From NCBI GenBank assembly GCA_013812905.1, contig JACCSP010000182.1, forward strand, positions 1 through 37,442: a DNA stretch of 37,442 nucleotides, in the 5' to 3' direction. The notes under the pieces were generated by a model. The model did no database searches. It saw only the letters and a program-made list of their open reading frames with translations, and was not told where the DNA came from. This DNA is from Pyrinomonadaceae bacterium (GTDB taxonomy: Bacteria > Acidobacteriota > Blastocatellia > Pyrinomonadales > Pyrinomonadaceae). The translations under genes were made by a program, and so were the position numbers. Positions within the stretch are counted from its first letter, which is position 1; the number at the start of each line of letters is the position of its first letter. This document shows, piece by piece, positions 26,194-32,437 of this stretch.

Positions 26194-26262
26194 GACTTAT
26201 CAACAAGGAACTCGTAATGAACTAAGTCGGGTTTAACCACTCAACGAACCATTCAATTGACA

Positions 26263-28953
26263 ATGGATATCCCTAAACAATACGACCCCACGGAAGCTGA
26301 ACAACATCACTATGCGCGATGGGAGCAGGAAGGATACTTTGCTCCTGAAATCAATCGCGACCCGCAGGCGACAGTCTTCTCTATTGTGATTCCTCCGCCC
26401 AATGTTACCGGTTCATTGCACATGGGCCACGCACTCCAACATACGATAATGGACGTGATCATCCGTTACAAGCGAATGTGTGGGTTCCGCACGTTGTGGC
26501 TTCCAGGAACGGATCATGCCGGCATCTCGACCCAGTTGATGGTCTCCCGCGAACTGAAAAAGGAAGGTCTGTCGCGTTACGATCTGGGACGCGAAGAATT
26601 TGTTGAGCGAGTCTGGAAATGGAAGCGGGAGTCGGGGGGACAAATCACGAAGCAAATGCGGCGCGAAGGCGCGTCGGTGGATTGGTCGCGCGAGAAGTTT
26701 ACGATGGACCATGATTTGTCGCGCGCTGTTCGGGAAGTGTTTGTGAGTCTCTACGATGAAGGATTGATCTATCGAGGGAATAGAATTGTTAACTGGTGTC
26801 CTAACGACCAGACCGTGCTTTCCGATCTTGAAGTGCAAAAGGACCCACAACCGGGGAAGCTCTATTATCTCCATTACCCTGCAAAGAACGGCAAAAGCGG
26901 CGTCACCGTAGCAACCACTCGGCCAGAAACGATGCTTGGGGATACGGCAGTGGCCGTAAATCCGAACGACGAACGCTATGGCAAACTCATTGGCGCGACA
27001 CTGTTGCTTCCGCTCACCGGTCGCGAAATCCCGGTGGTCGCGGACGAGTTTGTCGATCCTCAATTTGGAACAGGGGCGGTTAAGGTTACACCTGCTCATG
27101 ATTCCAATGACTACGAGATGGGCCTTCGTCACAGTCTCGCGCAAGTCGTGGTGATCGATGCGCACGCAAAGATGACAGAAGCTGCCGGCTCAGACTTCGC
27201 GGGACTGGATCGATACAAGGCTCGGCAGAAGGTGGTCGCGGAATTTGAGGCGCTTGGTTTGCTCGAGAAGGTGGATGATTACGAGTTCTCGATTTCCAAG
27301 TGTGAACGATGTAAGACCGTGATTGAACCCTTGATTTCGCTGCAGTGGTTTTGCCGGATGGACAAGCTCCGCGACCTGGCGCTCGATTTCATCGCCGGGG
27401 AGAATAAGCCTCAATTTGTTCCCGAAGTGCCTTACCAGAAAGTTTATATAGACTGGCTGGAGAACCTGCGCGACTGGACCATCTCGCGCCAACTGTGGTG
27501 GGGACACCAAATTCCCGCGTGGTACACGACGGACGGTAAGGTGGTGGTCGCTCGTTCGTATGAAGAAGCCTGTACTAAAGCCGGAACCGAGGAGCTAACT
27601 CAGGATCAGGATGTCTTGGACACGTGGTTTTCGTCAGCCCTCTGGCCATTTTCGACCCTGGGCTGGCCGGAAGAAACCGAGGGCCTGAAATCGTTCTATC
27701 CCACCTCGGTGCTGGTTACAGCCCGCGACATCATTTTTCTTTGGGTCTCGCGGATGGTGATGATGGGAATGAAGTTCATGGGCCGGCGTCCGTTCGATGA
27801 CGTGTTTATCACCGGGACCATTCTCGACAAAGACGGCCAGCGAATGTCAAAGACGAAGATGAATGGTGTTGACCCGCTCGATGTTTTCGATAAATACGGG
27901 GTAGACGCCACCCGCATCATGCTGGCTTCCGTGGGCAGCACTGACATACGCTGGAACGAGAAGCAGGTTGAGTCTTATCGTAACTTCGCCAATAAAATCT
28001 GGAATGCAGCGCGCTTCTGTCTGATGAATTCGGAGGGAGCCGCCGTTGATCCAGAGAGTCTGAGGGCAGGAGTACAAGAGCTGGCTCTGCACGATCGTTG
28101 GATACTGTCTCGTTTGAACAGGACGACGGGCGACTTGCACGAGGCGCTTTCCAGTTATCAGTTCCACGAAGCGGTGCAAACTCTGTATCACTTTTTTTGG
28201 GACGACTTCTGCGACTGGTACATCGAGTTGACGAAGTCGGAGGTCACGGCTGAGGAGGCCACAACCCGTCGGACTCATGCTCGGACGCGTATCTTGACCG
28301 TACTTGAACAGGCGCTGCGGCTACTCCATCCCTTCATGCCATACATTACCGAGGAGTTATGGCAGCGTTTGCCGGGTACAGATGCAAAGCTGCTTCACCA
28401 GTCGTACGCAGGCGCTTCGCCGACAATCATGCTCACCGCCTATCCGCTGAGCGCGACCGAGTTGATCGACGAGGAGGCCGAATGGGAGATGCAAGCGATA
28501 ATCGACCTGATTTCGAGAGTACGCAATATCCGTTCGGAGATGAATATCAAACCTGGCGAACGGGTTCGCATCCTGATTGGTTCTCCCGATGAGAGGTTGA
28601 GGAAAGTGTTTTCCGTGAGCATCGACCAGATCTCCAGATTGGCGCGGGCGTCCGAAGTTTCGATCAGAGATCGACTGGATGCGCCGAGAGCCTCTGCCCG
28701 GGCTGTACTGGTGGGGGGCGCGGAAATGGCTATTCCACTCGAAGGTCTTATCGATTTTCAACAAGAGCGTCAGAGACTGCGGAAGGAGCTGGACAAACTC
28801 CAGGCAGAAGCAAGCAAGCTCGAGGCACAGCTGGGTAATACAGGCTTCGTCGAACGAGCGCCGGAAGAGAAAGTAAACGAATTGCGGGCTCGCATCACGG
28901 ATATTGCGCGGCGTTCAGCGCAACTCAGACAAACAATTGAGAATCTGAAATGA
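26263..28953 (+). CDS. valS: Valyl-tRNA synthetase
   Basis: A class I aminoacyl-tRNA synthetase of 896 residues that charges tRNA-Val. The catalytic domain has the HIGH motif as H53-M-G-H (PPNVTGSLHMGH) and the KMSKS loop as RMSKT (527-531). The editing domain lies between them (TTRPETMLGDTAVAVNP, with the threonine-rich TTRPE motif). An anticodon-binding helical domain and a C-terminal coiled coil (about 815-895) with Leu/Glu-rich heptads follow, as in bacterial ValS. The ATG at 26263 is preferred over the TTG two codons earlier. No clear Shine-Dalgarno is seen. Its stop overlaps the next gene as ATGA, so the two are coupled. Confidence 0.96.
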   Translation: MDIPKQYDPTEAEQHHYARWEQEGYFAPEINRDPQATVFSIVIPPPNVTGSLHMGHALQHTIMDVIIRYKRMCGFRTLWLPGTDHAGISTQLMVSRELKKEGLSRYDLGREEFVERVWKWKRESGGQITKQMRREGASVDWSREKFTMDHDLSRAVREVFVSLYDEGLIYRGNRIVNWCPNDQTVLSDLEVQKDPQPGKLYYLHYPAKNGKSGVTVATTRPETMLGDTAVAVNPNDERYGKLIGATLLLPLTGREIPVVADEFVDPQFGTGAVKVTPAHDSNDYEMGLRHSLAQVVVIDAHAKMTEAAGSDFAGLDRYKARQKVVAEFEALGLLEKVDDYEFSISKCERCKTVIEPLISLQWFCRMDKLRDLALDFIAGENKPQFVPEVPYQKVYIDWLENLRDWTISRQLWWGHQIPAWYTTDGKVVVARSYEEACTKAGTEELTQDQDVLDTWFSSALWPFSTLGWPEETEGLKSFYPTSVLVTARDIIFLWVSRMVMMGMKFMGRRPFDDVFITGTILDKDGQRMSKTKMNGVDPLDVFDKYGVDATRIMLASVGSTDIRWNEKQVESYRNFANKIWNAARFCLMNSEGAAVDPESLRAGVQELALHDRWILSRLNRTTGDLHEALSSYQFHEAVQTLYHFFWDDFCDWYIELTKSEVTAEEATTRRTHARTRILTVLEQALRLLHPFMPYITEELWQRLPGTDAKLLHQSYAGASPTIMLTAYPLSATELIDEEAEWEMQAIIDLISRVRNIRSEMNIKPGERVRILIGSPDERLRKVFSVSIDQISRLARASEVSIRDRLDAPRASARAVLVGGAEMAIPLEGLIDFQQERQRLRKELDKLQAEASKLEAQLGNTGFVERAPEEKVNELRARITDIARRSAQLRQTIENLK

Positions 28954-29804
28954 ACTGGCTGGACGAAGGCGCGCTATATTCTCAGATTTCCGTATTCCTG
29001 CGCGAGGACTTGGGCCGAGGCGACATCACGAGTCAAGCGATAGTGGCGCGTAACACGCGCGCCCGCGGTCGCTTCGTCGCTGGGGAAAAAATGGTCGTCG
29101 CGGGACTGGAGGCAGCCGAGGAAGTTTTCATTTCCCTGGACTCCCAGGCTCAGCTCGAAGCATTCGTCGCCGATGGCGAGGAAATCGAAGCGGGCAAGGT
29201 GATTGCGCGTATGGTCGGCTTTGCCGACGTGCTGCTTGCAGGTGAGCAGGTTGCTTTGAACCTGCTACAGCAACTCTCAGCAGTGGCCACTCTGACTAAT
29301 CGATTTGTCCGCGCAGTTGAGGGCACCGGCGCCGCGATTGTCGATTCCCGTAACACCACACCGGGGATGCGAATGTTGGAGAGGTATGCCGTGCTTCTTG
29401 GTGGCGGGCGCTGCAGTCGCTTCGGCCTGGATGACGGTGTGCTGGTCACGTCTAACCATCTAGCGATCGCGGGCGGGGTAGCTGATGCTGTTAAAAATGC
29501 CAAAGAGAGAGTTGGTCATCTCCACAAGATCAAAGTTCAGGTTTCAAGTGAGATCGATCTGCGAGAGGCAATTAGCAATGGTGCCGACATGCTTTTGCTT
29601 GAAGGCCTGCCCGTCGAAGAAGTGGTTCGCCTTACAGCTGTGACCAGGAACCTCTCATCGGTGGTGAGCATTGAGTGTTCCGGTAACATTACCCTGCAAA
29701 ACGTGCGCGCTTACGCTGAGGCTGGTGCAAACACGATCAGCATCGGTGCGCTAATGAAGTCTGCGCGGGCGATGACGGTGACTTTTCAGATACAGCCATT
29801 TTGA
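28950..29804 (+). CDS. NadC-like phosphoribosyltransferase with altered active site
   Basis: A 284-residue protein with the complete quinolinate phosphoribosyltransferase fold: REDLGRGDITS at the N-terminus, GEQVALNLLQQLSAVAT, DSRNTTPGMRMLERYAVLLGG (132-152) and the barrel end IECSGNITL / NTISIGAL. Several residues that bind quinolinate and PRPP in NadC are replaced: the Lys of DTRKTTPG is N135, NHR is C155-S156-R157, the KDNH Lys is T167, EVE is QVS and the MLDN Asp is a Glu (LLLEG). These substitutions at once make normal NAD synthesis doubtful. It may be a paralogue with a new substrate or a non-catalytic relative. It overlaps valS by 4 nt (ATGA). The family is certain, the activity is not. 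Confidence 0.85.
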   Translation: MNWLDEGALYSQISVFLREDLGRGDITSQAIVARNTRARGRFVAGEKMVVAGLEAAEEVFISLDSQAQLEAFVADGEEIEAGKVIARMVGFADVLLAGEQVALNLLQQLSAVATLTNRFVRAVEGTGAAIVDSRNTTPGMRMLERYAVLLGGGRCSRFGLDDGVLVTSNHLAIAGGVADAVKNAKERVGHLHKIKVQVSSEIDLREAISNGADMLLLEGLPVEEVVRLTAVTRNLSSVVSIECSGNITLQNVRAYAEAGANTISIGALMKSARAMTVTFQIQPF

Positions 29805-29973: not shown

Positions 29974-30768
29974 ATGCAAAGTTCATTTTTTCGAACGGCC
30001 GCGTTTCTGGTCGCTGTTTTAGTAGCCACCAGCTTTTGTTTGATTGATGCCGATGCCCAGACGCGCAGGAAACGGCGCTCGCGCCGCGTTGTCAGACCGG
30101 TTGTCACCAATCCGATCATAACTCCCGCCGAAGCGCAAAAAGCGAGTGCGAGCGGCGATAAAATCATCAGTACGGCCGACGAAACTCCGGACGCGGAGGT
30201 CGATGAAACCACTCAAAGCGCGGAGACTAGGCCAAAGATGGGTAAGAACGCCGGGAAACCGGCAGCCGTGGACGAGGATATACAGCAGACTATCAACGGC
30301 CTTTCCAGTCAAGTTAACAGGCTAAACGACAAACTGAGTCAGATGCAGGAGACGGACCATGCTTTGATGGACATGGAGCGGCTTTCTCGGGCCGAACAGC
30401 GTGCGGAGAGTCTGAGATCGCAGCAAGTGGAAGTCGAGAGTAAGCTGGCCGACTTGCAGTCGAAATTGGAGGAAACCGAGTATCTGATGAAACCGGAGAA
30501 TATTGAGCGAGGGATGGCCACCTTTGGCTCTACCCGTCCGGAAGAAGCGCGAGAAGCGCGACGCCGGAAACTTGAGAGCGACAGAACTCGACTCCTGGCA
30601 CAAACAAAAATCTTGGAAACGAGTCGCGTGCGGCTGGAATCCGCCGTGGCTACGGCGGATGCGGAAAGTGATCTCCTGCGCCGCCGTTTAGAGTTGAGAC
30701 GAGCGCAGGAGAGTACTTCGCTCGAACCAACCGAATCGCGCCCGAACGATCGGCGGAAGCCGGAGTAG
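29974..30768 (+). CDS. Secreted coiled-coil protein
   Basis: A 264-residue protein with a signal peptide (1-28, ending DADAQ), then a very basic patch (TRRKRRSRRVVR), an acidic disordered stretch and two long coiled coils: about 95-170 (QTINGLSSQVNRLNDKLSQM onwards) and 195-250 (Arg/Glu/Leu heptads). No enzymatic domain is seen. It resembles periplasmic structural coiled-coil proteins, but no family can be named. AGGAG lies 7 nt before the ATG. The 169-nt gap after the nadC-like gene holds only a 29-codon frame starting on the TGATG junction (29804-29893), which I do not accept. The xdhC-type gene follows 21 nt later. Confidence 0.75.
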   Translation: MQSSFFRTAAFLVAVLVATSFCLIDADAQTRRKRRSRRVVRPVVTNPIITPAEAQKASASGDKIISTADETPDAEVDETTQSAETRPKMGKNAGKPAAVDEDIQQTINGLSSQVNRLNDKLSQMQETDHALMDMERLSRAEQRAESLRSQQVEVESKLADLQSKLEETEYLMKPENIERGMATFGSTRPEEAREARRRKLESDRTRLLAQTKILETSRVRLESAVATADAESDLLRRRLELRRAQESTSLEPTESRPNDRRKPE

Positions 30769-30789: not shown

Positions 30790-31125
30790 ATGGGAACCAT
30801 TGCACAACGCGACCTTTACCGAATGATCAGTGACGCGTACGAGCGAAGCGAGCGCGTGGTGGTTGCGACCGTGGCCCACACCCGGGGTTCAACTCCGCAG
30901 CAGCGCGGCGCCAAGATGCTGTTTCTTGAAAGTGGCGACGTTGCCGGCACGGTTGGTGGCGGATGCATCGAGGCAGAGGTCTGGTCGGGAGCGCGAGAGG
31001 CGATGCGATCGGGCGAATCAGCGCTGCACCATTTTTCCCTTACCGCCGAAGAGGCTACCGAAGAAGGGATGGTCTGCGGGGGAACGATGGATATTTTTAT
31101 TGATGTGATCGGTGACGCGCGTTGA
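30790..31125 (+). CDS. XdhC/CoxI-type N-terminal domain protein
   Basis: A 111-residue protein equal to the XdhC_CoxI domain alone: VVATVAHTRGSTPQQRGAKM, the GTVGGGCIEAEV loop and the MVCGGTMDIFID end, with both conserved Cys. In XdhC, this domain helps bind molybdenum cofactor for insertion into xanthine dehydrogenase-type enzymes. The usual C-terminal Rossmann domain is missing here but present in a separate gene at 31595. No molybdoenzyme gene lies in the window. No Shine-Dalgarno is evident. Heptad array 5 begins 8 nt after its stop. Confidence 0.85.
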   Translation: MGTIAQRDLYRMISDAYERSERVVVATVAHTRGSTPQQRGAKMLFLESGDVAGTVGGGCIEAEVWSGAREAMRSGESALHHFSLTAEEATEEGMVCGGTMDIFIDVIGDAR

Positions 31126-31133
31126 GGGTAGAA

Positions 31134-31229
31134 CCATTTTCCATATCTCATTTGTCATCTAGAGAATCCGGAGCGTTAACTCGTTTGAGTAATGGAAAAT
31201 GAGAAATGTCAAATGCGATATGGAAAATG
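31134..31229. repeat. Heptad array 5 (xdhC-DUF962 junction)
   Basis: Left half 31134-31161: four heptamers of YCATNTN type. Right half 31192-31226: five tandem heptamers all starting ATG (ATGGAAA twice), plus a final ATG at 31227-31229. The halves are inverse complements (20-nt stretches differ at about one base), separated by a 30-nt spacer. It lies between an upstream stop and a downstream gene start, as in the dcw cluster. Confidence 0.8.
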
Positions 31230-31273
31230 TTTTCGCACCTCTTGAGTTCAGTCAACGTCTCCGAAGGCTGAAA

Positions 31274-31576
31274 ATGTCGGGATTCCTTCTCCAAAACTAC
31301 CGAGCAAAGCATCAGCACCCGCTGAATAAACTCTGCCACAGCGTCGGTATTCCGATGATTGTGATTTCCCTTCCGCTAGTTTTCTTTAATTGGCCCTTGG
31401 CATTGACGCTATTCGCTGGAGGCTGGATTCTCCAATTTCTTGGCCATAAAATCGAAGGCAATCAACCGGCGTTTTTCAAGAACCCTGTTTACCTACTGGT
31501 TGGGCCATTATGGCTTATTCGCCGTGCTGCCGCGGCAGTTGGCCTCGCAAAGACGCGTACGACACCTGCGAAATAA
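31274..31576 (+). CDS. DUF962 / Mpo1-like membrane protein
   Basis: A 100-residue protein with two to three hydrophobic helices. It matches the DUF962 (YGL010w/Mpo1) family: HQHPLNKLCHSVGIPMIVIS near the start and LGHKIEGNQPAFFKNP toward the end. The yeast member Mpo1 is an iron-dependent dioxygenase of 2-hydroxy fatty acids in the ER membrane; the His residues of the N-HxxxxH and GH motifs are present here. Bacterial members are not well studied. The ATG at 31274 has GAAGG about 6 nt upstream; the frame is open back to 31199, but that part is made of heptad array 5. It sits between the two XdhC-type genes. Confidence 0.8.
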   Translation: MSGFLLQNYRAKHQHPLNKLCHSVGIPMIVISLPLVFFNWPLALTLFAGGWILQFLGHKIEGNQPAFFKNPVYLLVGPLWLIRRAAAAVGLAKTRTTPAK

Positions 31577-31594
31577 CCTCCTCCACCCATCCGA

Positions 31595-32437
31595 ATGTCG
31601 GAGGCAAACGAACCGCTGACCGCGCTGCTCCTCAACGCGATTGAGAACGTGCTGGAGGAAGGCTCAATCGCAGCGCTCGCCACGCTAACTAACGCTCCTA
31701 AAAATATCGGCACCAAGATACTCTTTCCAGAATCAGGCCCTGTGGTTGGCAGCTTCGGCGATGTAGCCCTCGATCAGGCCGTTGCCCAAGGGGCGGCCAA
31801 ATTCCTGGCAGCCCGAGACGCAGCTCATCTATTTCAAGTCTCAGACTTTGCTCCCGAGCTGATCGAATGGGCCGAGGCGAGCATTTTGTTCGAGCGGCTA
31901 GAGCCGGAACCGCGACTTGTGATTTGCGGTGCGGGCCACGTTGGCGCTGCACTCGCTCATCTGGCAACTCTGACCGGCTACCAGGCCGCTTTAATTGATG
32001 ACCGGGCAAGTTTTGTCGTGCGCGATCGTTTTCCAGACGACCGCATTGAATTGATAGCGGCCGAGAATTGGAGTGACGCGGTTCGTCGAGCGATTGGAAA
32101 CGGCCGTGGAGTCTCGGTAGCAGTAGTGACGCGCGGTCACAATGAGGACGAGGAGTGCATGAGGGCCGTGATCACCACTAACGCGGATTACGTAGGACTA
32201 ATCGGGAGCAAACGGCGAACGAATATAGTTCTCGATCGGTTGCGCGCAGCGGGGACTGAGTTCGAGAAGTTGAGGAAGGTGCACGCTCCCATCGGTCTGG
32301 ACATCGGCGCGGTCACGCCTGAGGAGGTGGCGCTCGCGATTCTGGCCGAGATGGTCGCTGTACGGCGCGGCGGCACGGGTGGCCCACTCTCCTCTTGGCG
32401 CCGCGAATCGAGTAAAAAAAGTAAACAGGTGAGATAG
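31595..32437 (+). CDS. XdhC-type protein with Rossmann domain
   Basis: A 280-residue XdhC-family protein. The N-terminal 95 residues keep the outline of the XdhC_CoxI domain but have lost its GGGC and CGG motifs (GSFGDVALD in place of GGGCIEAEV). The C-terminal Rossmann-like domain is intact: VICGAGHVGAALA (109-121), DDRASF, TRGHNEDEECM, GLIGSKRRT and VHAPIGLDIGAVTPEEVALAI. XdhC proteins load molybdenum cofactor onto partner dehydrogenases. It probably works with the domain protein at 30790, together giving one complete set of motifs. The tail is basic. Starts 18 nt after the DUF962 gene. Confidence 0.86.
   Translation: MSEANEPLTALLLNAIENVLEEGSIAALATLTNAPKNIGTKILFPESGPVVGSFGDVALDQAVAQGAAKFLAARDAAHLFQVSDFAPELIEWAEASILFERLEPEPRLVICGAGHVGAALAHLATLTGYQAALIDDRASFVVRDRFPDDRIELIAAENWSDAVRRAIGNGRGVSVAVVTRGHNEDEECMRAVITTNADYVGLIGSKRRTNIVLDRLRAAGTEFEKLRKVHAPIGLDIGAVTPEEVALAILAEMVAVRRGGTGGPLSSWRRESSKKSKQVR

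Follow-up and report, generated by a model that had tools for sequence, protein, structure and literature searches.

In the window analysed here, a stretch of 37,442 nucleotides from a Pyrinomonadaceae bacterium (Acidobacteriota), we studied a gene for a NadC-fold protein of 284 aa whose catalytic pocket has degenerated (nadC*, positions 28950..29804, forward strand). We propose, with a probability of roughly 60%, that its product NadC*, the valS-linked NadC that the family originally had, is a pseudoenzyme, which would have lost its quinolinate phosphoribosyltransferase (QPRT) chemistry after the loss of nadA and nadB and whose scaffold would have been kept for a non-catalytic function. NadC* displays the combination by which conserved pseudoenzymes are recognised, that is the loss of catalytic residues while purifying selection continues.

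A NadC fold with a substituted pocket

The start codon of nadC* overlaps by 4 bp the stop codon of valS (26257..28953, forward strand), a gene that adjoins nadC across the family. By searching protein family profiles, we found that NadC* matches both NadC domains of Pfam (QRPTase_N and QRPTase_C) and scores 256 bits against the NCBIfam nadC model (TIGR00078), for which the curated cut-off is 198, placing it in the NadC family. An identity as ModD was rejected, the modD profile giving 96 bits against a cut-off of 178.85. The AlphaFold model of NadC* (pLDDT 85) superposed on solved NadCs over its full length, with a Z of 31.5 and an rmsd of 1.9 over 274 residues in the case of 1x1o. The scaffold is therefore intact, as the preliminary description of this DNA had maintained. 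The genome from which the window comes (G000) is 98% complete.

Then, we aligned NadC* with 51 reference proteins of the same family, Pyrinomonadaceae, namely 39 canonical valS-linked NadCs and 12 nadC2 proteins. The following residues, invariant in all 51 references, are changed in NadC*: K45G, R100Q, K135N, N155C, H156S, K167T, D168S, E195K, E197Q, D218E, N219G and H270K. The alignment thus confirmed every substitution listed in the preliminary description (N135, C155-S156, T167, Q197 for the second Glu of VEVE, and E218) and added G45, Q100, S168, K195, G219 and K270 to them. G45 (29082..29084, forward strand as for all codons below) stands in place of a Lys of the N-domain, and C155-S156 (29412..29417) in place of Asn160-His161.

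Published work assigns roles to many of these positions. First, in the NadC of M. tuberculosis, an Ala at Arg105', Arg139, Arg162, Lys172 or His175 is each enough to make activity undetectable (PMC4065032). Within this quinolinate-binding set, NadC* has Q100 (29247..29249) for Arg105' (M. tuberculosis numbering) and T167-S168 (29448..29453) for Lys172-Asp173, and keeps Arg139, Arg162 and His175; it is thus devoid of two of the five residues whose single Ala mutants are inactive. Second, the porcine enzyme binds ribose through Glu201 and Asp222, and phosphate through Lys139, Asn223, Gln274 and three glycines (PMC3633916). The corresponding set Lys140, Glu201, Asp222, Asn223 and His/Gln274 reads N135, Q197, E218, G219 and K270 in NadC*: N135 (29352..29354) replaces the phosphate-binding Lys140 (porcine Lys139), K195-V-Q197 (29532..29540) replaces E-V-E with loss of the ribose-binding Glu201, E218-G219 (29601..29606) replaces the ribose- and phosphate-binding Asp222-Asn223, and K270 (29757..29759) replaces a phosphate-binding His (porcine Gln274). 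Given the published roles of the replaced residues, NadC* of the window has very likely lost QPRT activity. Moreover, the set of substitutions goes beyond chance, since 17 related proteins, grouped in one clade, are altered at the same positions.

Orthology of NadC* and the NAD pathway genes around it

We surveyed the family in 99 genomes, draft assemblies throughout and mostly metagenome-assembled, and read the residues in about 60 of them. In most genera, the NadC at the same locus has its full set of catalytic residues and is the sole NadC match in the genome. The gene order valS-nadC-orf264-xdhC1-mpo1-xdhC2 is common to genomes with a canonical copy and to those with a degenerate one. In the NadC tree, the 17 degenerate proteins (genera g1, g29 and g3) form one clade (100/99) nested among canonical NadCs, and the same clade was recovered in a tree of the concatenated flanking genes (95/95); the valS tail by itself did not recover it. 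Together, tree and synteny show that NadC* and the family's working NadC are positional orthologues, NadC* being the original gene and not a side paralogue.

To place these copies in their metabolic context, nadA, nadB, nadC and PncB were scored in 40 genomes. First, seven genomes with a degenerate copy (G002, G015, G029, G030, G045, G059 and G064) have no nadA, as far as drafts of 92-100% completeness indicate, lack any nadB that passes the curated cut-off and have the degenerate copy as their single NadC; a PncB-type protein is present in each of them. Second, the other genomes with a degenerate copy (those of g1, together with G053 and G069 of g3) possess nadA as well as a distinct, canonical nadC2, with nadC2, nadA and nadB adjacent where contigs allow (e.g. 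G079:C654). A second, canonical nadC accompanied by nadA/nadB, whose presence the preliminary description had proposed to check, was indeed found in the window's genome: nadC2 lies close to a contig end on C86, as does the nadA-nadB pair on C112. PncB gave no match in that genome. NadC2 shares roughly 43-56% identity with NadCs across the phylum. Third, none of the sampled genomes combines nadA with a degenerate NadC as its sole NadC; the canonical copy of G011, a genome 93% complete, occurs with no nadA match. These data show that pocket loss tracks the loss or replacement of nadAB. As for the idea that NadC* could be the nicotinate transferase of nadA-less genomes, we rejected it as a general explanation because all seven of them have a PncB-type protein.

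NadC* and NadC2 are present side by side in 9 g1 and 2 g3 genomes. As NadC active sites sit between two subunits (PMC3633916), NadC* might enter mixed oligomers with the canonical NadC2 and regulate it. We consider such a partnership very improbable. Sequence identity between the two proteins amounts to only about 40%, and Arg105', the residue that one subunit would lend to the other, has given way to Gln or His in the window's subclade. More importantly, NadC* is the sole NadC of five g3 genomes and of G029 and G015, so that a partner role fails as a general cause of retention.

Selection, pocket loss and retention of nadC*

By reading the pocket across the clade, we observed that no member retains K45, D168 or H270, that a single one retains Asp222, and that Asn223 is missing from the majority. 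All five quinolinate-binding residues are present in g29. Most g3 proteins keep these five as well, two having Gln at Arg105' and one Leu at His175. In g1, Lys172 and Lys140 are lost in every protein, and the window's subclade has additionally lost Arg105' and Asn160. The NadC of G015 (L009:6001-6846), from a genome with no nadA, carries N155V, H156S and N219S with most other residues intact; because it lies outside the clade and has fewer losses, it appears to represent a separate case (g15) in which pocket loss is at an earlier stage. The graded series formed by canonical NadCs, g15, g29 with g3, g1 and the window's subclade suggests an order in which the pocket was surrendered, and the residues involved suggest that the phosphoribosyl side may have been given up first.

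We used codon models to measure the constraint on nadC*. Omega was 0.128 in the window's subclade, compared to 0.145 for the valS tail of the same genomes, 0.052 in the other g1 subclade and 0.084 in g3, where most genomes are without nadA or a second NadC. An omega of 1 was rejected in the window's subclade (2dlnL 233) and, across the three subclades, with 2dlnL from 233 to 907. Also, differences among relatives concentrate at third codon positions. An antisense gene was dismissed as the source of this constraint: the 117-aa antisense frame at 29150-29503 is interrupted by one or more stops in each of the relatives checked.

A joint codon model of 16 taxa then separated 20 pocket sites from non-pocket sites on canonical, stem and degenerate-clade branches. 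At non-pocket sites, canonical branches gave an omega of 0.084 and the degenerate clade one of 0.064, values that do not differ (2dlnL 2.6), and non-pocket neutrality across the degenerate clade was strongly rejected (2dlnL 1573). Pocket omega was 0.001 on canonical branches, a value that is low partly by construction since sites were picked partly for their invariance in canonical NadCs, 0.40 on the stem, where it is poorly determined (2dlnL changes by just 0.4 when the stem pocket is set to 1), and 0.099 in the clade. The increase of pocket omega was significant (2dlnL 24), as was the departure of the clade pocket from neutrality (2dlnL 299). The choice of canonical-invariant sites does not affect comparisons made inside the degenerate clade, and within the window's subclade the pocket evolves faster than the remainder of the protein, with an omega of 0.35 against 0.11 and with 9 of 20 pocket sites variable against 51 of 264 elsewhere. 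By comparison, the pocket was invariant in two canonical sets. The proposal first made from the letters of the window, of a changed or absent activity under selection and not random decay, agrees well with these results, as neutrality is rejected, the pocket is released and the constraint on the scaffold is normal. Between the two, the variability of the pocket favours an absent activity.

A changed activity would mean that the NadC* pocket acts on a different substrate and without PRPP chemistry of the usual kind. In line with such a new enzyme, purifying selection on nadC* is strong, the clade pocket remains constrained as measured above, N169 is kept in all degenerate-clade proteins and H170, R134 and R157 in most, and S264 turned into Arg together with G266 into Asp/Glu in both g3 and g1b. 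However, no newly fixed pocket residue is found clade-wide, and within g1 only T167 and E218 are. Furthermore, the pocket varies among the 87-90% identical proteins of the window's subclade (N, D, G or Y at position 135, R or L at 134, and R, C or H at 157), evolving there at three times the rate of the other sites; as the pocket is the most rapidly changing part of the protein in that subclade, a conserved new active site is disfavoured there. Finally, none of the neighbouring genes hints at a substrate, which bears out the earlier remark that the valS overlap and the XdhC neighbours point to no clear one. Taking these observations together, we regard a new enzymatic activity as unlikely.

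We also asked how regularly the gene is kept. It is intact in 7 of 7 g3 genomes and found in 9 of 16 g1 genomes, 8 times intact and once fused to valS. The g1 genomes G048, G034, G009 and G072, which together form one subclade (98/98), are without it, and a profile search detected no nadC* remnants in the valS-orf264 gap of g1 genomes that do not have the gene. Since this subclade lost nadC* cleanly, the gene is dispensable. In G085, an in-frame deletion joins valS (to residue 881) with NadC* from residue 27, so that the NadC N-terminus is missing. The single open frame created by this deletion lies at L006:3389-6774 (the same place as L107), with valS broken again upstream. Given this other break and an assembly only 78% complete, the fusion may be an assembly fault.

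The deletion in one g1 subclade, the truncated fusion of G085 and the fact that active-site loss follows nadAB loss could all be expected if NadC* were an old nadC relic slowly decaying until its deletion. This is hardly compatible with an omega of 0.05-0.13 in three subclades, with sites outside the pocket being as constrained as in live NadC, with third-position differences and with the 16 matches in g1 and g3, which contain zero internal stops. We therefore hold slow decay to be very improbable.

A probable scaffold without its chemistry

We thus favour a pseudoenzyme that arose in several steps. The de novo NAD pathway (nadA, nadB) would have been lost in the ancestor of g1, g29 and g3, and this loss probably preceded that of the pocket. 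NadC* would then have been retained as a folded NadC oligomer without chemistry, for a putative non-catalytic function such as a scaffold, protein-protein or carboxylate-sensing role, which the family's working NadC would already have had. Later, g1 would have regained de novo synthesis through the separate nadC2-nadA-nadB genes without NadC* being reinstated. As the gene is intact and constrained like the working enzyme, a second, non-catalytic job is probable, and since the constraint is undiminished in an orthologue, a prior second role of the working enzyme is the simplest account. More tentatively, and somewhat short of even odds, this second function would be important enough to impose full constraint after both activity and pathway have gone, NadC* being that function laid bare. 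What speaks against a pseudoenzyme is that the clade pocket is relaxed but not free, its omega of 0.10 being below 1. In g29 and most g3 proteins, some ligand may still bind because the quinolinate-binding Arg/Lys/His set is intact.

Compared with NadC, or quinolinate phosphoribosyltransferase (TIGR00078, QAPRTase), NadC* is orthologous and has the same two-domain fold, length and locus, but its substrate- and phosphoribosyl-binding residues are largely replaced and, in its genomes, the de novo pathway is absent or served by another NadC. ModD (TIGR01334) is likewise a NadC-like protein outside NAD synthesis, whereas NadC* is a NadC proper and no molybdate transport genes were recognised adjoining nadC*. 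Other pseudoenzymes reported to derive from metabolic enzymes are an inactive APRT isoform of Trypanosoma brucei (PMC8836349) and those of PRPP synthetase (PMC13252144). They reportedly resemble NadC* in that the fold is kept, the chemistry lost and the protein kept. Such pseudoenzymes are usually described as duplicates alongside an active copy. In contrast, NadC* is putatively the original gene inactivated in place, and g29, g15 and most g3 genomes hold no active NadC beside the degenerate copy. Among the papers listed by our literature searches, which left most subscription journals outside, we found neither a known NadC pseudoenzyme nor work on NadC of Pyrinomonadaceae.

NadC* would represent a natural separation of function, in which constraint outlasts chemistry in an orthologue and not in a spare copy; a hidden second role of this textbook enzyme is thereby open to direct testing. 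As NadC* passes the curated cut-off, it is expected to be annotated as nadC with high confidence, and metabolic models of these soil bacteria would therefore wrongly credit this gene with NAD synthesis.

Downstream of nadC*, the locus continues with a conserved gene for a 264-aa protein (orf264, 29974..30768, forward strand) with no Pfam or NCBIfam match. This protein has a signal-like N-terminus and coiled-coil-like sequence, and its gene lies 3' of nadC, or of valS where nadC was lost. Next come the conserved neighbours xdhC1, an Mpo1-like gene and xdhC2 (30790..32437, forward strand), in which XdhC is split into an XdhC_CoxI part and a Rossmann part (30790-31125 and 31595-32437) by the Mpo1-like gene, an arrangement conserved across the family. 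In g1 genomes without nadC* (L100:3627-4396, L101:2291-3750 and L102:3243-4051), valS is followed by the gene of a small protein of ~180 aa that looks secreted and ends ...DDGCGCIAFDSSQVTLE.
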